From: Cytophagales bacterium | Lineage (GTDB): Bacteria; Bacteroidota; Bacteroidia; Cytophagales; UBA9547 | NCBI GenBank assembly: GCA_013297755.1 | Contig: JAAFIH010000028.1 | Span: 1 to 64,000, forward strand | Direction of reading: 5' to 3' | Length of the DNA: 64,000 nucleotides | Shown here: piece after piece, positions 47,854-56,257 of the stretch | How positions within the stretch are numbered: position 1 is the first letter of the stretch | Layout: the number at the start of each line of letters is the position of its first letter | Position numbers and translations under genes: made by a program | Notes under the pieces: model-generated | Told to the model about the DNA's origin: nothing | The model's database searches: none | What the model saw: the letters and a program-made list of their open reading frames with translations, nothing else

Positions 47854-48771
47854 ATGAATGTATTTGTAAGTGGTGGTGCTGGTTATATAGGAAGCGAATT
47901 GGTCAATAAATTGGCTCAAGACAAAGATGTAACCAAAGTAATTGTGTATGATAATTTGGCACGAAAAAACTATAATTTTTTTACAAGCTATGCTTTTGAT
48001 AAATCCAAAATTGAGTTCCTAGAAGGCGATTTGCTAGATTCTCGCAAAATGCGACAAGCCCTCAAAGGCATAGATATAGTGTATCACTTGGCGGCCCTAA
48101 CCGACAAAAATCCTTACATCGATTCCCACATTTTTGAGCAAGTCAATCATTGGGGTACATCAGAATTAATCAATGTTATAGAAGAGTCTACTTCTGTTCA
48201 GAAAGTTATTTATTTGAGTAGTGTGGCAGTATATGGCTCAGGCGAAACTGTGTTTACAGAACAGCACATACCCAATCCTGATTCATTTTATGCCACCTCT
48301 AAATGGCGTGGCGAAGAACAAGTAAAAAGACTTTTTGAAACTAAAAAATGCTATATAGTGCGTGTGGGCAATGTATATGGCTATTCGCCATGTTTGAGAA
48401 TAGATGGCGTAATCAATAAATTTATGTTTGATGCCAATTTTAAAAACAAAATATCCATTATTGGTAATGGTCGCCAGTACAGAAATTATATTCACATAGA
48501 CGTAGTTTCCGAAACATTAGCAAAATTTCTTACCATACAAGCAGACTCTGATACTTTTAATTTGGTAGACAAAAACCTACAAGTATTGGATGTAGTAGAG
48601 ATTTTGCAAGAACTGTATCCACGATTGGAGTTTATATTTATAAATCAGCATCTCAAAATTAAAGATATACAAGTAGCCACTACAGACGTTAAACTATCGC
48701 AATATATACATATAGAGAGTACCAATTTGATTGACGATTTGAGCGATTATAAATCTAATTTTTCATTTTAG
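47854..48771 (+). CDS. NAD-dependent epimerase/dehydratase (extended SDR)
   Basis: 305 residues with the Rossmann motif GGAGYIGS (8-15) and catalytic YATSK (Y146, K150), preceded by SSVAVYG with the active serine region. Length and motifs fit nucleotide-sugar epimerases or dehydratases of the extended SDR group. The substrate cannot be read from sequence. It is five bases upstream of a PorP/SprF gene and so co-transcribed with it. A sugar-nucleotide step for surface glycans or the A-LPS-like anchor used by T9SS cargo is possible, but this is inference. Confidence 0.87.
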   Translation: MNVFVSGGAGYIGSELVNKLAQDKDVTKVIVYDNLARKNYNFFTSYAFDKSKIEFLEGDLLDSRKMRQALKGIDIVYHLAALTDKNPYIDSHIFEQVNHWGTSELINVIEESTSVQKVIYLSSVAVYGSGETVFTEQHIPNPDSFYATSKWRGEEQVKRLFETKKCYIVRVGNVYGYSPCLRIDGVINKFMFDANFKNKISIIGNGRQYRNYIHIDVVSETLAKFLTIQADSDTFNLVDKNLQVLDVVEILQELYPRLEFIFINQHLKIKDIQVATTDVKLSQYIHIESTNLIDDLSDYKSNFSF

Positions 48772-48776
48772 TAGAG

Positions 48777-49778
48777 ATGTATAAATTTGGCCTGAGTTTC
48801 ATTTATTTTTTTTTATTAAGTGTATGTTTTAATGAAATTAAAGCTCAGGATGTGCAACTAACCCAATTTTATGCCTCTCCTGTGTACCTCAACCCTGCCT
48901 TTGCAGGAGCTACCGATTGCTGGCGGGTGGGAGCAAACTACCGAAATCAGTGGTTTTTGGGCAATAAATCTTACCAAACTGGGGTAATATTTGGTGATAA
49001 AAACATACGCAGCATAGGTGCAGGCTTGGGTGCCTATATCATGTATGACACTCCTGGGTCTGGTGGATTTCAAACTTTTGAATTTGCTGCAGCTTTTGCC
49101 AAAAAAATAAAACTGTCGCAAGATTGGCAACTCAGGCTAGGATTACAACCTTCTTACCATCTCAAATACATGACGAGTGGTGCTGCCAGCAATACTTATG
49201 GCGACCAAATGACCAACCTACAAGGCGTAGTCAATGGCACCTCTGATAGCCCTTTAGTATATGGAAGTTACAATTTTTTTGATCTTTCTACAGGGTTTTT
49301 GCTCTATTCCAAAAGCCTTTGGCTAGGCTTGGCGGCACATCATTTGTTACGAAATCCTTTCATCAAATCTTACGCCATACAGCCAGTACCCATGAAATTG
49401 TCGCTACATGGTGGCTACAAAATACAACTATACGATGCCTCAGAATCTACCCTAACACCTGCATTTCAGCTCAAACAACAAGGTTATGCCTTGCAACTCG
49501 ACTTGGGTGCTTACTACGAACGCTCTCGTATGATTTTTGGGGCTTGGTATAGAGGCCTACCCATTATTACTGGCAAGGGTTTCAATACAGATGCACTTGC
49601 ATTTTTGATAGGTTATCGCAAATATGATTTTAGGGTTTGCTATAGCTATGATTTGCCCCTATCCAAAATGATTTACTCCTTTGGCACCCACGAAATATCA
49701 GTAGTGTTTGAATTTTGTGTGGCAGGCAAACAAAAACCCCCTCGCAATGTGCAACAACTACCCTGCCCTATTTTCTAA
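48777..49778 (+). CDS. PorP/SprF family T9SS outer-membrane protein (second copy)
   Basis: 333 residues with signal peptide ending at KAQ, and the family signature VQLTQFYASPVYLNPAFAGAT followed by YRNQW. Beta-barrel strands alternate through to the C-terminus. It pairs with an epimerase rather than with a type B cargo or OmpA gene. The giant type B cargo ends its divergent promoter region 0.7 kb away, so it may be the client, which is inference. Confidence 0.9.
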   Translation: MYKFGLSFIYFFLLSVCFNEIKAQDVQLTQFYASPVYLNPAFAGATDCWRVGANYRNQWFLGNKSYQTGVIFGDKNIRSIGAGLGAYIMYDTPGSGGFQTFEFAAAFAKKIKLSQDWQLRLGLQPSYHLKYMTSGAASNTYGDQMTNLQGVVNGTSDSPLVYGSYNFFDLSTGFLLYSKSLWLGLAAHHLLRNPFIKSYAIQPVPMKLSLHGGYKIQLYDASESTLTPAFQLKQQGYALQLDLGAYYERSRMIFGAWYRGLPIITGKGFNTDALAFLIGYRKYDFRVCYSYDLPLSKMIYSFGTHEISVVFEFCVAGKQKPPRNVQQLPCPIF

Positions 49779-49872
49779 CTTAGGCCTAGAATGTGGATTA
49801 AAAATAAAAAAAACAACTTGATAGTCATTCAGAAAATAAAAATAAGCATTTTTAAGTGGTAGACAATTTTAC

Positions 49873-49880
49873 TAACTTTG
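49873..49880 (+). promoter_or_regulatory. Putative promoter -7 box TAACTTTG
   Basis: TAACTTTG fits TAnnTTTG and lies 24 bases before the ATG at 49905. It overlaps an upstream in-frame TTG (49878), which therefore cannot be the start. Confidence 0.5.
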
Positions 49881-49904
49881 CATCAATACTTTTATAATAC
49901 TGAA

Positions 49905-52247
49905 ATGGCAAACGAAAAAAAAACGGAGAGAATTGTTTATTCTCACTTTGAACAATTTAAAGATGTAATTCATATTGAAGAACAGGCTTCTGATAATGCT
50001 AAAATTGATAAATTACTCAAAACTGCCTCTAAAAAAGGAACAGGAAAAGGCAGACCTGAATTTATTATTACCTACAATAAAAATGCTGATTTACTTATCG
50101 TTATAGAATGTAAAGCAGAAATTACAAAACACGAAAGTCCAAATAGAGACAAATTTGCAGAATTTGCAGTTGATGGCGTTTTATTGTATGCTTCATACTT
50201 ATCAAAAGAATTTGATGTTTTGGCTATTGCTGTAAGTGGCGAAACGAAACAACATTTAAAAGTATCTCATTTTTTACACTTAAAAAATGAACGAAAAGCT
50301 ACTGAAATATTTGGCGACAAACTTTTATCTGCACAAGATTATTTAGACGGATATTTAAAAAGTCCTGAAAAATTTAGACAAGATTACAACACACTTTTAG
50401 AATTTACAAAAAAACTAAACGAGAAACTTCATACATACAAAATCCTTGAAAGCCAAAGAAGTTTATTGATAAGTTGTATTTTGATTGCATTAGAAGATGA
50501 TGCTTTTCGGAAATCATACACATTAAAAAATACGCCAAAAAGTTTAGCAGACTTCTTAACAAAAACCGTTTCTGAAAAATTAGAAGAAGCCAATATTTCG
50601 GGTAAGAAATTAGAAAATCTAAACATGCAATTTGGTTTTATCAAAACCGACACTTCACTTTCTACAAAAGATAAAGTTTTAAAAGAACTTATTGACGAAA
50701 TTGACGAAAACATCAATCAATTTATCAAAACTCACGAATACTTTGATGTTTTAGGACAGTTGTACATTGAATTTTTGCGTTATGCAAATAGCGACAAAGG
50801 TTTGGGTATAGTACTGACACCACCACATATTACAGAATTATTTGCAGAATTAGCCCAAGTAAATAAAAATTCTATTGCTTATGACAACTGCACTGGAACA
50901 GGTGGATTTTTGATTTCAGCAATGAAAAAAATGATTGAAGACGCAAAAGGCGACAAAAGTAAAGAAGCTGAAATAAAATCGAAACAACTAATTGGCGTAG
51001 AATATCAAGCCCATATTTTTGCTTTGGCAGTTTCTAATATGTACATTCATCAAGACGGCAAAACCAATATAATGAATGGCAGTTGTTTTGATGAAGAAAT
51101 AATTAAAGAAGTAAAAGATAGAAAGCCAACTGTTGGTTTTTTAAATCCACCATATAAATCAGACAAAAAAACTGATACAGACGAATTAGAATTTATTTTT
51201 AATAACCTTGAAAGTTTAGTTGATGGTGGAACTTGTGTAGCAATTGTACCAATGCAAAGTGCATTAGCCACAGGTGGTAAGGTTTTAGAATACAAGAAAA
51301 AACTATTAGACAATCATACATTAGAAGCAGTATTATCAATGCCAGACGAATTATTTTTTAATTCAAAAGTTGGTGTGGTTTCTTGTGTTATGGTTTTTAC
51401 AGCACACAAACCACACCCAAAACATAAAGAAACATATTTTGGTTATTACAAAAATGACGGATTTGTAAAACGCAAAATTCAAGGCAGAATCGATGCTTAT
51501 GGACGTTGGGACGCAATTAAAGAAAAATGGATTTCTCACTTCTTAAATAAAAAAGAAGAAATAGGATTTAGCGTAAATCAAATAATAATAGCAGAAGACG
51601 AATGGTGTGCAGAAGCATATATAAAACCTGATTATTCTAAAATTACTACTATAGATTTTGAAAATAATGTCTTTAATTATATCTGCGTCCTTATCAAGTA
51701 TAAAATAATTGACATAGATAAAAACCTTACAAAAGAGCCTGTTTTAAATCAAAATTCACAATTTGATTTTAATAACTGGAAGAGTTATAATCTTACAGAA
51801 TTATTTGACATTAAAAAAGGAGAAAGGTTGACAAAGTACGATAGATTAACTGATGAAGAAAATATCCCACTCATAACTGCATCTTCAGAGAATAACGGTA
51901 TTGTTGATTTTATTTCTAGGTTTGATTTTGAGGATAGCAAAATTATCTTTGAAAACAAAATTACAGTTGATATGTTTTTTAATGTATTTTATCAGCCATT
52001 TGAGTATTTTAGTGATGACAATGTGCATACTTTGATTCCAAAATTTAATGATAATCCTTATATAAATTTATTTTTGGTTACTTTATTTAAAAGTTATGTT
52101 TTAAAGTATAATTACGGAAGACAGGTTAGATTACACAGACTTGAAAAAGAAAAAATATTTATCCCATCAAAGAATGGTAAGCCTGATTTTATATTTATGG
52201 AAAATTTTATAAAATCAATTATGTACTCCTCAATGATAAAACAATGA
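49905..52247 (+). CDS. Single-chain type I-like restriction-modification enzyme (nuclease + N6-adenine methylase + specificity domain)
   Basis: 780 residues from ATG 49905. The N-terminal 150 residues form an HSDR_N-like PD-(D/E)xK nuclease (GRPEFIITY...LIVIECKAE). An HsdM-type methylase follows, with YDNCTGTGGFL (SAM motif) and NPPY at 414-417. About 630-780 is one HsdS-like target-recognition half (WKSYNLTELFDIKKGERL to YNYGRQ...MENFIKS). Having cutting, methylating and recognition parts in one chain is the type IIG plan. Only one recognition domain is present. Its stop overlaps the start of a small ORF (ATGA), and broken copies of its 3' end follow. Confidence 0.87.
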   Translation: MANEKKTERIVYSHFEQFKDVIHIEEQASDNAKIDKLLKTASKKGTGKGRPEFIITYNKNADLLIVIECKAEITKHESPNRDKFAEFAVDGVLLYASYLSKEFDVLAIAVSGETKQHLKVSHFLHLKNERKATEIFGDKLLSAQDYLDGYLKSPEKFRQDYNTLLEFTKKLNEKLHTYKILESQRSLLISCILIALEDDAFRKSYTLKNTPKSLADFLTKTVSEKLEEANISGKKLENLNMQFGFIKTDTSLSTKDKVLKELIDEIDENINQFIKTHEYFDVLGQLYIEFLRYANSDKGLGIVLTPPHITELFAELAQVNKNSIAYDNCTGTGGFLISAMKKMIEDAKGDKSKEAEIKSKQLIGVEYQAHIFALAVSNMYIHQDGKTNIMNGSCFDEEIIKEVKDRKPTVGFLNPPYKSDKKTDTDELEFIFNNLESLVDGGTCVAIVPMQSALATGGKVLEYKKKLLDNHTLEAVLSMPDELFFNSKVGVVSCVMVFTAHKPHPKHKETYFGYYKNDGFVKRKIQGRIDAYGRWDAIKEKWISHFLNKKEEIGFSVNQIIIAEDEWCAEAYIKPDYSKITTIDFENNVFNYICVLIKYKIIDIDKNLTKEPVLNQNSQFDFNNWKSYNLTELFDIKKGERLTKYDRLTDEENIPLITASSENNGIVDFISRFDFEDSKIIFENKITVDMFFNVFYQPFEYFSDDNVHTLIPKFNDNPYINLFLVTLFKSYVLKYNYGRQVRLHRLEKEKIFIPSKNGKPDFIFMENFIKSIMYSSMIKQ

Positions 52248-52429
52248 ATTATACAAAAATATTAAACCATAAAATTATTTGGTTTTTAAGAGAGAGTGAG
52301 TCTTTAGTTTTGAACAACAGTTGGCAAGAAAAAATAGTTGGTTTTATTATAAATGAATACATGGAAGGTGAATTTGCTGTAGAAATTAATAACTCTACCG
52401 ATTCATTAATTTGGAAAATTGAAAAGTAG
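52244..52429 (+). CDS. Small hypothetical protein coupled to the restriction enzyme
   Basis: 61 residues. ATG 52244 overlaps the restriction gene stop by four bases (ATGA), suggesting translational coupling. I do not recognise the family. Its second half (EGEFAVEINNSTDSLIWKIEK) weakly resembles the 52677-52988 ORF (EGELCQFVNDEREFVYWKLKI). It stops about 12 bases before the first specificity-domain remnant, so it may be a truncated version of that family. Confidence 0.5.
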   Translation: MNYTKILNHKIIWFLRESESLVLNNSWQEKIVGFIINEYMEGEFAVEINNSTDSLIWKIEK

Positions 52430-52441
52430 TAATATAAATAA

Positions 52442-52651
52442 CTATTTTCAGCCAGCGACCACGTTGAAAAATTGATACCAACTTTTGAAATGAATAAATA
52501 TGTTGCTATGTTTTTAGTAACCATTATGAATTTAGAAAAGTATCGTTACAACTATGGTAGGAAATGTAGCCAAACAAGAATGAAGCAAATAAGTATAAAA
52601 CTACCAAGCAAAAAAGGACAACCAGACTTTGAGTATATGGAAAATTCTTAA
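52442..52651 (+). pseudogene. Remnant of a specificity (HsdS-type) domain C-terminus
   Basis: An open stretch after a TAA reads FSASDHVEKLIPTFEMNKY, then KYRYNYGRK and RMKQISIKLPSKKGQPDFEYMEN, the classic HsdS TRD C-terminal half. It aligns with the last 75 residues of the enzyme at 49905-52247. No start codon or upstream TRD part is present. A one-base deletion near 52645 breaks the last 14 codons. When restored, the frame ends in YSGSI and a TGA that overlaps the next ORF start. Confidence 0.8.
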
Positions 52652-52676
52652 AATCTTTAAACTATTCAGGTTCAAT

Positions 52677-52988
52677 ATGATGCACACAGAAAAATACATA
52701 TTAAATACGCTAAAAACTATTGCGTTAGAAGTTCTAAACAAAAAGCTGAATGGTAATAGTCCTCGATGGGATTTGACTATTTCTTCAGTAATAATAGATG
52801 AAGAAATTTATCAAGCAATTGCAAAAATTATTTTAGGCGGAAGCAAAGAAGGAGAACTATGTCAGTTTGTTAATGATGAAAGAGAATTTGTTTATTGGAA
52901 ATTAAAAATTAATTGGAAATATGAAAAACCAGCATTTATATTTTTCAACAAAAGTGAGATAATAGATATTATACTTAAACAAGAATGA
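52677..52988 (+). CDS. Small hypothetical protein following the specificity remnant
   Basis: 103 residues from ATG 52677, which overlaps the ancestral TGA of the preceding specificity remnant as ATGA, just as the 52244 ORF does with the intact gene. No recognised domain. There is a hydrophobic/charged pattern with WDLTISSVIIDEEIYQAI and EGELCQFVNDE. Its last three codons lie inside the next specificity remnant, so its end may be set by the recombination junction. Confidence 0.55.
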   Translation: MMHTEKYILNTLKTIALEVLNKKLNGNSPRWDLTISSVIIDEEIYQAIAKIILGGSKEGELCQFVNDEREFVYWKLKINWKYEKPAFIFFNKSEIIDIILKQE

Positions 52989-53086
52989 AACAGATAAGTA
53001 TAAAACTACCAAGCAAGAAAGGAGAACCAGACTTTGAATATATGGAAAATTTTATAAAATCGTTGTCTTATTCAGGTTCTATATAA
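52979..53086 (+). pseudogene. Second remnant of a specificity-domain 3' end
   Basis: Reads RMKQISIKLPSKKGEPDFEY then MENFIKSLSYSGSI and TAA. It is highly similar at DNA level to 52577-52677 in the first remnant and similar in protein to the end of the intact enzyme. It covers only the last 35 codons. No small ORF follows. An IS element begins 48 bases downstream. Confidence 0.8.
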
Positions 53087-53133
53087 CTTGAAAAAATCAA
53101 TAAAAAAAGAAAAGTACAATAATAGCTTAAAGT

Positions 53134-54853
53134 AGGCTTCCCTTTAAAATTATTTTTTTCAGGTCAATAATCTACTTAAAAGTATCATATTTTTCAAAAT
53201 ATTTTTTGTATTATTCCTAACGCTTGTTTGATAATATTAAAATAGTACAATTTTTTAGTTTTCGATTTTCATTTTCGCTTTTTTAGACCCAAAAGCACAT
53301 ACCTCTTCCATCAAAGTCTGCTTTGTTTTTTGTTTAAGCCGCTTTTTTACGACTTAATTTCATTTCTTTTTCAGCTTTTTCTTTCGCTATTTTGGCTTTT
53401 CTTTTATTCTTTATTAATACAACATTGGCGGTAAATACACCAAATAATACCCATATTAACTCCGTTCCCTCGTTTTGTGCCTTGATTTTGTTTAGCAAAT
53501 AATGGTTTTTTTCATTCCCAAAAGAGCCCTCCAAAGCGGTGCTTCGCAATTTCCCTAGTTTTTCCTTTATCTTTTTTTCCTTTCTTAATTTAACTGGGTC
53601 GCTTTCTTTTGGCCCTTTTTTTGGAAAATTAGTTTCTATGTCGTTGTCAGTAAGAAATTTCCTGTTTTTATTTGTAGGATAGATGTTGTCAGCCGCCAAT
53701 TGACTGCATTTACCAAACATTTCTTGGCATGACAACACGCTTGATTCTAGCCTTGTGTTTTCATTAAAAGCACTAAAACTTACATGCTCAAGCCAGTTTA
53801 TTCCGTCTGTTTGGCAAATATGGGCTTTCATGCCAAACTCGGTGGGTTTGTTTTCTTTTCCACGTTTTATGGGGCGTACGTAGGGTTTAAAAATGGAAAC
53901 TATTCTATCATCTACCTTATTTTTAGGGTCTTCTATTAATATTTTTTGTTGTTCTAGCACTTTTTGGATGCTCGAAAATACTATACCTAGTTTTGTTTCT
54001 ATTTCATAACCCTGCACTTGAGATACAGTATCTGTATATAAATTAATGCTTTTTTTTAAAAACTTTAGTAAGTTTTGTCGTATCTGTAATGTCTTTCTAT
54101 GACTCTTTTTTCGATTTTTACTGTAAGCTAAATACTTGTTTCTCTTAGCTTTAAATGCCGTTCTAGGTAATTTTAGATTATATTTTTTACAAAATGAGGG
54201 TATTAATTTTTCATGTATTTTTTCGCAACATTCAAATAGTAATTTTACATCAGTAGGAAAGCGAATGTAGCTCTCAAAGCAAGTAGCATCTAGCATCAAA
54301 AGATGTGTGTTTTCTAAATCATTGCTTGCTTTCCAGTAAGAAATCATTATTTTTTGAAAATCATTTGAGTTCAAATTTTTGGCTAAATACGACCTTACGT
54401 GGCTCACAAAGGCGTTATTTTTTATTTTTTCGTTTTCTTGTAGCAAACATCCACAAAATAATTGCATGTCTGTATTGGCATGAAAAAGTTCTAGTAATTT
54501 TTCATCGCTTACTTTGTAGTAGTGTTTCAAAAACATCATTCCAATATAGCCTTGAGGTTTAAGCCAAGCTGGGGCGCCTTTTGGCGATTCCTTTTCTGGC
54601 AATAATTGAACTAAATCAGTCCAAGGAATGGCGTCATAAATTTTTCCAAGCTCAGATGAATTCTTGAAAATGTACCATTTATAAGATTTATAGGAATCTA
54701 AAGGAAATAATGTAGATTGCATCGCTTAAGTTTGTTTTTAACACACGAAATATAAGCAAAAAACATCAATTTGGCACAGTTCGTGCCAAATTTGGTGTGA
54801 TTTATTTATCAACACCCTGATAATCAAGTAGTTAGAGAGAAAAAGGGAAGCCT
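53134..54853. mobile_element. Complete DDE-transposase insertion sequence, 1720 bp
   Basis: Terminal inverted repeats AGGCTTCCCTTT are at 53134-53145 and, inverted, at 54842-54853. They are flanked by the 5-bp direct repeat AAAGT (53129-53133 and 54854-54858), a target-site duplication. One transposase gene fills the element. Both ends and the reading frame are intact, so it looks recently active. Confidence 0.9.
53334..54722 (-). CDS. IS transposase (IS5/IS1182-like DDE)
   Basis: 462 residues. Candidate catalytic residues are D145 (LLMLDATCFES), D345 (LAADNIYPTNKN) and E398 (STALEGSFGNEK). An N-terminal helix-turn-helix-like region (YKVSDEKLLELFH) and a lysine-rich C-terminus are typical of IS1182/IS5-group enzymes. 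The exact family cannot be fixed by eye. The gene is intact. Confidence 0.87.
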   Translation of the reverse strand: MQSTLFPLDSYKSYKWYIFKNSSELGKIYDAIPWTDLVQLLPEKESPKGAPAWLKPQGYIGMMFLKHYYKVSDEKLLELFHANTDMQLFCGCLLQENEKIKNNAFVSHVRSYLAKNLNSNDFQKIMISYWKASNDLENTHLLMLDATCFESYIRFPTDVKLLFECCEKIHEKLIPSFCKKYNLKLPRTAFKAKRNKYLAYSKNRKKSHRKTLQIRQNLLKFLKKSINLYTDTVSQVQGYEIETKLGIVFSSIQKVLEQQKILIEDPKNKVDDRIVSIFKPYVRPIKRGKENKPTEFGMKAHICQTDGINWLEHVSFSAFNENTRLESSVLSCQEMFGKCSQLAADNIYPTNKNRKFLTDNDIETNFPKKGPKESDPVKLRKEKKIKEKLGKLRSTALEGSFGNEKNHYLLNKIKAQNEGTELIWVLFGVFTANVVLIKNKRKAKIAKEKAEKEMKLSRKKAA

Positions 54854-55080
54854 AAAGTAACTTCCAAAAGTCCCAAATATATTTTCAAAAGCCTCACACT
54901 AAACCCAAAGCCTCGCTCAAAACTATCGATTTGCCGTAAAAAAAAGAGAAACTTATGAAATGGGGTCTTTAAAAGTCGCCTTAAAAAAGCATTTTAAACC
55001 CTTGCTATAACTTTTTTGAAAATAAAAATGAATTGTAAATAAATAAACAAATTATATGACTTAATTAGGAGTATATTTTC

Positions 55081-55088
55081 TAGTTTTG
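55081..55088 (+). promoter_or_regulatory. Putative promoter -7 box TAGTTTTG for the AAA ATPase gene
   Basis: TAGTTTTG fits TAnnTTTG and lies 20 bases before the ATG at 55109. Confidence 0.45.
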
Positions 55089-55108
55089 CAAAAAAAAATC
55101 TAATTTTA

Positions 55109-56257
55109 ATGATAAAAAACAACAACGAAGCTACTAAAAGTACTACAATTACTTATATAGAAAATGAAAAGAAATTACCACAAAAAACAATACTTTTTAC
55201 AAAAGACAGCCATAATTTAGATTCACTAAGCCTCAAAAGTGATAAATTTAGATATATTGATAGTTTTAATTTTTATTTAAACTACTTTCATTATATCCCA
55301 AATTTGATGCAAGAATTTAATATTTTTAGTAAAAAAGCCAACGAATGGTTTTGCAATACCTACCATGCCGAAATTAAAGATTATTACTACTCAAAGAAAA
55401 GAGTAAAATCAAATAAAAAAACCGAAATAGACGAAGTAATATACATACTCCACAACGATTTATTGGTTTTTTTTGATCTCAATGACGATTGCGTTAGTTT
55501 GTTTTTTCGTAATACAGATATTGCTTTTATAGAAACTATACTATCACAACTCCAAAAATTTAGAATCAAAATCCAGCCAGATAGCCCAGAGATAATGCTT
55601 ATAGTGCAATCATCAAGGGGGCTAGATACAAAATCGCTAGATATTACTAAACCAAAACTAAATATTGAGGATAATTATAACGATGATTTTTTACCAATAC
55701 ATCAATTAATTTTAAAACGCTTAAAATTAAAAAATGATAAAGGACTTGTGCTTTTGTATGGCAAACCAGGCACTGGCAAAACTTCTTACATCAGATACTT
55801 GATAGGTTCTGTGAAAAAGAATGTCATTTTTTTGCCTCCAGATATGGCCTCAAATATTACTAATCCAGGCCTTATTTCAATTCTAATTGATAACCCTAAC
55901 GCAATTTTTGTAATAGAAGATGCCGAACGCTTGATTGTGGACCGAGAAACAGAAGATAATTCGCCAGTATCAGCATTATTAAATATTACAGATGGTTTAT
56001 TGGCCGATTGCTTAAATGTTCAGATTATTTGTTCTTTTAATACTGATATCTCCAAAGTAGATGCTGCATTGCTTCGCAAAGGCAGACTTATTGCCAAATA
56101 CGAATTTGGAGAATTGCAAACCAACAAAGCTCAAGCATTATCAAAAAAACTAGGTTTTAAGAATGAAATCAACCAAAGCATGATTTTATCTGATATTTAC
56201 AATCAAGAAGACCTAAATTTTGAAATTCAGAAAAAAAGAACCATAGGTTTCAAGTAA
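55109..56257 (+). CDS. AAA family ATPase (BCS1-like)
   Basis: 382 residues. The N-terminal 200 residues have no recognised domain. The AAA module has Walker A GKPGTGKT (218-225), Walker B FVIEDAE, a sensor-1-like SFNTD and an arginine-finger region ALLRKGRL. The LLNITDGLL segment resembles BCS1/CDC48-type AAA proteins. A chaperone- or unfoldase-like role is likely, with unknown client. It lies just past the IS element and has its own promoter. Confidence 0.82.
   Translation: MIKNNNEATKSTTITYIENEKKLPQKTILFTKDSHNLDSLSLKSDKFRYIDSFNFYLNYFHYIPNLMQEFNIFSKKANEWFCNTYHAEIKDYYYSKKRVKSNKKTEIDEVIYILHNDLLVFFDLNDDCVSLFFRNTDIAFIETILSQLQKFRIKIQPDSPEIMLIVQSSRGLDTKSLDITKPKLNIEDNYNDDFLPIHQLILKRLKLKNDKGLVLLYGKPGTGKTSYIRYLIGSVKKNVIFLPPDMASNITNPGLISILIDNPNAIFVIEDAERLIVDRETEDNSPVSALLNITDGLLADCLNVQIICSFNTDISKVDAALLRKGRLIAKYEFGELQTNKAQALSKKLGFKNEINQSMILSDIYNQEDLNFEIQKKRTIGFK

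Follow-up and report, generated by a model that had tools for sequence, protein, structure and literature searches.

Apparent exchange of a target-recognition domain together with a small coupled gene at a type IIG restriction-modification locus

Introduction

The exchange of target-recognition domains (TRDs) and the movement of domains in the S genes of restriction-modification (RM) systems are established (Furuta et al. 2011, PMC3077401), and single-TRD S subunits that dimerise have been described (PMC3874165). Insertions with long target duplication are likewise described for RM genes (Nobusato 2000, as cited in PMC3077401). In the type IIG/IIB enzymes of the BcgI kind (BcgI, BsaXI and TstI), the nuclease and the N6-adenine methylase form one chain and the TRDs are type I-like, as in the enzyme analysed here. 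However, the present enzyme has a single TRD fused to the same chain and is then followed by a small coupled gene; no description of a companion small gene for BcgI or BsaXI was found in the open-access literature searched. In a type IIG enzyme, cutting and methylation both change at once with a new TRD, a change expected to put the host at risk. A concrete candidate for a means of surviving or tuning such specificity changes is a small gene that is exchanged along with the TRD.

The locus lies in a stretch of 64,000 nucleotides (the window) from a Cytophagales bacterium (contig JAAFIH010000028.1, positions 1 to 64,000), and was compared with related loci carrying labels such as L019 and L039.

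Results

The enzyme gene and its surroundings

The forward-strand gene at 49905..52247 encodes a polypeptide of 780 residues with a PD-(D/E)XK nuclease at the N terminus, an N6-adenine methylase and one TRD (TRD-B) at the C terminus, the R-M-S order. Pfam comparison of the protein showed matches to N6_Mtase (E=2e-29) and Methylase_S (E=7e-16), the latter corresponding to exactly one type I S-subunit-like TRD. The best PADLOC model is type IIG (REase_MTase_IIG, E=1e-166, matched residues 19-594), the nuclease motif PEF...ECK is present and N6_Mtase motif I is intact. The initial annotation had described an intact nuclease-methylase-specificity gene, and the Pfam and PADLOC matches and the motifs bear this out; the product is predicted to be an intact single-polypeptide type IIG RM enzyme. 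TRD-B and its conserved C-terminal helix occupy 51774..52247 on the forward strand, and TRD-B is 56% identical to the second TRD of L030.

The enzyme gene is followed without a gap by an array of a small ORF (ORF1), a TRD 3' stub, another small ORF (ORF2) and a second stub. A transposase gene (DUF772 / DDE_Tnp_1_2) at 53334..54722 on the reverse strand adjoins the array and is not a member of it, and an AAA ATPase gene (55109-56257) adjoins the transposase gene. In the host, a PorP/SprF gene lies beside the enzyme locus, a sign of Bacteroidota. No terminator-like sites were found in 49500-53400, and no recombinase gene was recognised at 48000-56000, where the DDE transposase gene alone was seen.

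The stubs behind the enzyme gene

The first stub (52447..52680, forward strand) comprises the last 78 codons of a TRD of another type, TRD-A. It is frameshifted by a 1-nt deletion near 52642, and its old stop lies at 52678-52680. The second, older stub (52977..53086, forward strand) holds the last 35 codons of a TRD-A allele, directly abuts the end of ORF2 and is 90% identical to the first stub over 82 nt. Both had been noticed initially as extra specificity C-termini and both are real, but the first is slightly longer than the 52442-52651 given for it, extending from about 52447 to 52678-52680. The repeats among the specificity ends are direct and 64-90% identical; no long inverted repeats were found at the locus. 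The view that the stubs are stored cassettes did not hold, as they consist only of 35-78 codons from the conserved 3' end, with a frameshift in the first. Because the variable half of the TRD is absent from the stubs, they are best read as debris of earlier specificity ends.

The preceding state is retained in L019

The Sphingobacteriales MAG contig JAAFJW010000118.1 (L019) carries an intact TRD-A, an ORF2 whose start lies at ATGATG across the stop, and, after it, the same terminal stub. Its intact TRD-A is the gene end that matches the first stub of the window, and its ORF2 has a copy of the TRD-A 3' end, roughly 107 bp long, on either side. DNA comparisons of the window and L019 showed identities of 92.6% for the first stub, 98.7% for ORF2 and 93.6% for the second stub, whereas the first stub is 87.9% identical to the TRD-A of L039, consistent with the kinship of the backbones. 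The stubs are not the product of a single old deletion of one hsdS gene, the case that would have spoken against the initial annotation. The DNA 3' of the last stub is unrelated in the two loci (62.6% in a global alignment, near background), indicating that the array has moved between loci as one unit. The L019 enzyme gene is truncated on its 5' side beside a transposase-like gene, and since two transposase-like ORFs (L019:2727-5061) lie immediately 5' of it, the L019 enzyme is probably inactive.

Edges of the newest exchange

The DNA of the window is mostly about 78-94% identical to L019, L039 and L040 as far as about 51480, but by about 51620 the identity is no higher than 60%, placing the left edge of the exchanged segment in 51440..51620. 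The protein comparisons agree with this drop: the methylase is 88-89% identical to those of L039 and L040, which both carry TRD-A and are the closest backbones, whereas TRD-B is 33-38% identical to their TRDs. The right junction of the newest layer lies in 52430..52447, where ORF1 ends and the old TRD-A takes over at its FSASDHV codons. The identity drop along the gene, the TRD-A-type kin of the backbone and a TRD-A stub that runs from FSASDHV onward together argue that TRD-A was replaced by TRD-B plus ORF1. A segment of roughly 0.96 kb (about 51480-52440) would thus have been replaced, bringing in TRD-B and ORF1 and leaving the old TRD-A 3' end.

Parallel arrays in relatives

L029 carries another TRD type (TRD-C) and a small ORF of 69 aa, followed by a stub of TRD-A that begins at the same codons as the first stub of the window. 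L041 carries TRD-D, a 74-aa small ORF that overlaps the enzyme stop by 16 nt, and then a stub that reads YQAFDFSA, joined to MENFIKSLPYSSSI. The stub and the intact TRD in front of it are of different types in the window, L029 and L041, and of the same type in L019. The L029 stub is 79% identical to that of the window, far below the 92.6% between the window and L019, and the event in the window is younger than its split from L019; thus, the L029 and L041 arrays stem from events separate from that of the window. The initial proposal, that the recognition end was exchanged repeatedly and that a small ORF came with it each time, is supported by L019, by the identity drop and by L029 and L041.

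The three right junctions (window, L029 and L041) fall within about 15 bp of one another on the TRD, a clustering that was noticed after the fact. Each of the four intact TRD-A genes has GGTTATTG just upstream of the junction point; in L029 and L041, GGTTATTGG (the GYW codons) occurs in the small ORF shortly before the junction. It is possible that short homology guided the right junctions. In L021 (1501-4483), a type IIG gene has its second TRD in a separate overlapping frame, possibly reflecting a frameshift between two TRDs.

The small genes form a family

ORF1 (52244..52429, forward strand) encodes 61 residues, and its ATG overlaps the enzyme stop as ATGA. ORF2 (52677..52988, forward strand), the companion gene of the previous layer, encodes 103 residues. 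The ATGA overlap had been noted for both ORFs; the deletion has since put the stop preceding ORF2 out of frame, but L019 (6001-6004) confirms the overlap. The chance of a random open frame in this composition is about 0.011 for 61 codons and about 0.0006 for 103 codons.

The family comprises ORF1, ORF2 with its L019 counterpart, and the small ORFs of L027, L029, L030, L041 and L042, of which those in L027, L030 and L042 stand without any stub. The genes start overlapping the enzyme stop or about 4 nt behind it. The proteins have a variable N-terminal region followed by a shared Trp, and they also have in common the segment IA..I..GY..GE and a W-x-I stretch at the end. Leave-one-out profiles recovered ORF2 and the other members except ORF1 at E 1e-6 to 1e-9. 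The membership of ORF1 is weaker: a profile built without it matched at E=0.036, and its pairwise likeness to ORF2 is reached in about 1 in 1000 shuffles. The distant relatedness that was initially suggested for the two ORFs is weak both pairwise and by profile. The L027 protein (100 aa) is 56-58% identical to ORF2, with dN 0.32, dS 1.33 and dN/dS of about 0.24, showing constraint at the protein level. The small ORFs are accordingly regarded as a real protein family, as judged from sequence comparison.

Searches with the family profile in 292 genomes of the order gave seven confident matches in six genomes (E 3e-12 to 1e-31), all seven directly behind this enzyme gene or its stub. Homologues thus adjoin other specificity ends, and the question raised at the outset, whether they always follow type IIG 3' ends, is answered affirmatively for these matches. 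Across the phylum (392 genomes), the profile found the two copies of the window and otherwise nothing better than E=0.005. A 75-aa ORF in L058 (1420-1647) reaches this value with a similar GYTAGELCES...GWW stretch and lies upstream of an apparent ArdC-like antirestriction gene, assigned by eye and not by profile; it is possibly a very distant family relative in mobile elements. Neither ORF1 nor ORF2 matched Pfam or NCBIfam, and no other member had a Pfam match above the cut-off. The small ORFs matched no PADLOC family, had no significant match in PHROGs (best E 0.008) and none in the PDB, and searches of plasmids, phages and viral contigs with a subset of members gave no convincing homologue. 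The predicted structure of ORF2 is uninformative (pLDDT 41).

The identity among the small proteins across TRD types is 16-30%, in contrast to 69-89% for the backbone. The small gene is absent in L028, L040, L047 and L039, the L039 contig ending 225 nt after the stop. Of the conserved small gene first proposed, the attachment to the 3' end holds and the conservation is limited, given this divergence and its absence from at least four relatives. Since L039 and L040 lack the small gene yet keep an intact nuclease motif, it is optional and not essential.

Between the window and L019, ORF2 has 3 substitutions in 306 positions, compared with 24 in 345 for the surrounding stubs (Fisher P=1e-4; P=0.004 against the second stub alone). 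However, the low count extends to synonymous sites (one change), so a recent exchange of ORF2 may account for its few changes.

Discussion

A likely course of events

We consider it likely that recombination has replaced a 3' module at this locus, consisting of a TRD and a translationally coupled small gene, on at least one occasion and probably on two. The left crossover of the newest event would lie at about 51480, where the 3' portion of the methylase is conserved. At the right end, the DNA just behind the incoming small gene would have been joined to the middle of the resident TRD-A, whose 3' end was left over as a stub. We infer that short homology served to join this end once foreign DNA had been taken up, by end joining or by homology-facilitated illegitimate recombination. 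As the TRD and the small gene would change together, the target that is cut and methylated would be altered in one step. The locus keeps a readable order of specificity changes, and with the intermediates in relatives the path of TRD exchange can be traced stepwise.

Other explanations

A small gene could instead insert at the end of a specificity gene, duplicating its last 0.1-0.23 kb, with the TRD swapped later in a separate step. The position of the L019 ORF2 between its two TRD-A 3' copies resembles the insertions of Nobusato 2000 as presented in PMC3077401, and such an insertion could explain L019 alone. The other three arrays need extra steps: in the window, L029 and L041 the stub type differs from the intact TRD, requiring two steps each and not one, and the copy lengths vary from 107 to about 234 bp. 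We regard this course as unlikely. An origin from two or three whole RM or specificity genes that lost all but their 3' ends would be in keeping with stubs that are 3' ends only, and Furuta et al. (PMC3077401) describe broken paralogues of S as well as TRDs duplicated through recombination between repeats. However, L019 has the middle layer as its sole active end with no copy in front, and the deletions would have to begin just after each small ORF in four cases, making such decay improbable.

Specificity ends repeated serially at one locus also recall the silent cassettes that serve switching in phase-variable hsdS loci. The absence of the variable TRD half from the stubs, the frameshift in the first stub and the merely 64-90% identity of the direct repeats leave this reading scarcely credible, and a phase-variable hsdS locus was rejected on the lack of exchangeable TRD sequence in the stubs, of long inverted repeats and of a recognised recombinase gene at 48000-56000. 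The small ORFs, lying between pieces of TRD, might themselves be alternative-frame or decayed TRD sequence, and ORF1 is short and only weakly alike. However, a TRD match of any conviction was absent from the ORFs when their DNA was compared by blastx, and aligning the family with TRDs in hhalign gave 0.1% probability; on these two comparisons the small ORF as a disguised TRD was rejected. The dN/dS value and the members without stubs also oppose a non-genic origin, which is very improbable.

A role for the small protein

The small gene is translationally coupled, is exchanged together with the TRD and has diverged about as far as the TRDs have, and ORF2 shows fewer changes than the stubs; these features suggest that the small protein works with the recognition side of the enzyme. 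The small protein would act on the enzyme that it accompanies, and a modulator or partner, most likely of the TRD side, is favoured. It is possible, though on the doubtful side, that the small proteins are cognate modulators, for example holding back cleavage at the new specificity until the host genome has become methylated. Such restraint following a specificity change is the most attractive reading, with a structural partner of the single TRD as the main alternative. If the small proteins are cognate modulators, the true exchange unit would be the TRD plus its modulator, and this would account for both their joint travel and the later loss of the small gene.

A strict requirement for the small gene to restrain an active nuclease does not fit L039 and L040. 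Strict pairing of the small protein with TRD type was also rejected on mixed evidence, the window and L030 having TRDs that are 56% identical and small proteins that are 16% identical. In L028, read on the reverse strand and also without the small gene, the enzyme residues corresponding to window residues 65-75 contain ACK instead of ECK; with this loss of the catalytic Glu, seen in L028 only, the enzyme has probably lost cleavage.

Comparison with known systems

A family of small genes at the 3' ends of type IIG genes was not found in the open-access papers searched, and a fast-diverging small gene that travels with an exchanged TRD unit appears to be undescribed, TRD exchange itself being known. 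Like C proteins and other small RM regulators, the small ORFs lie in the operon of an RM enzyme. However, they are located 3' of the enzyme, are exchanged with the TRD and match neither a helix-turn-helix nor another Pfam family; identity with C proteins was rejected because no helix-turn-helix match was found (Pfam; NCBIfam for ORF1 and ORF2). As in the long target duplication of Nobusato et al. 2000, so far as it is presented in PMC3077401, a segment that has newly arrived lies between direct copies of a gene end, but the copies here are of different TRD types in three of the four cases. In the S-gene exchange described by Furuta et al. 2011 (PMC3077401), recognition domains recombine while the backbone stays, as they appear to do here. 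Both crossovers in those S genes fall in repeats inside the genes and leave no tail, whereas the right end in the window lies behind the companion gene and a stub of the former recognition domain is left.
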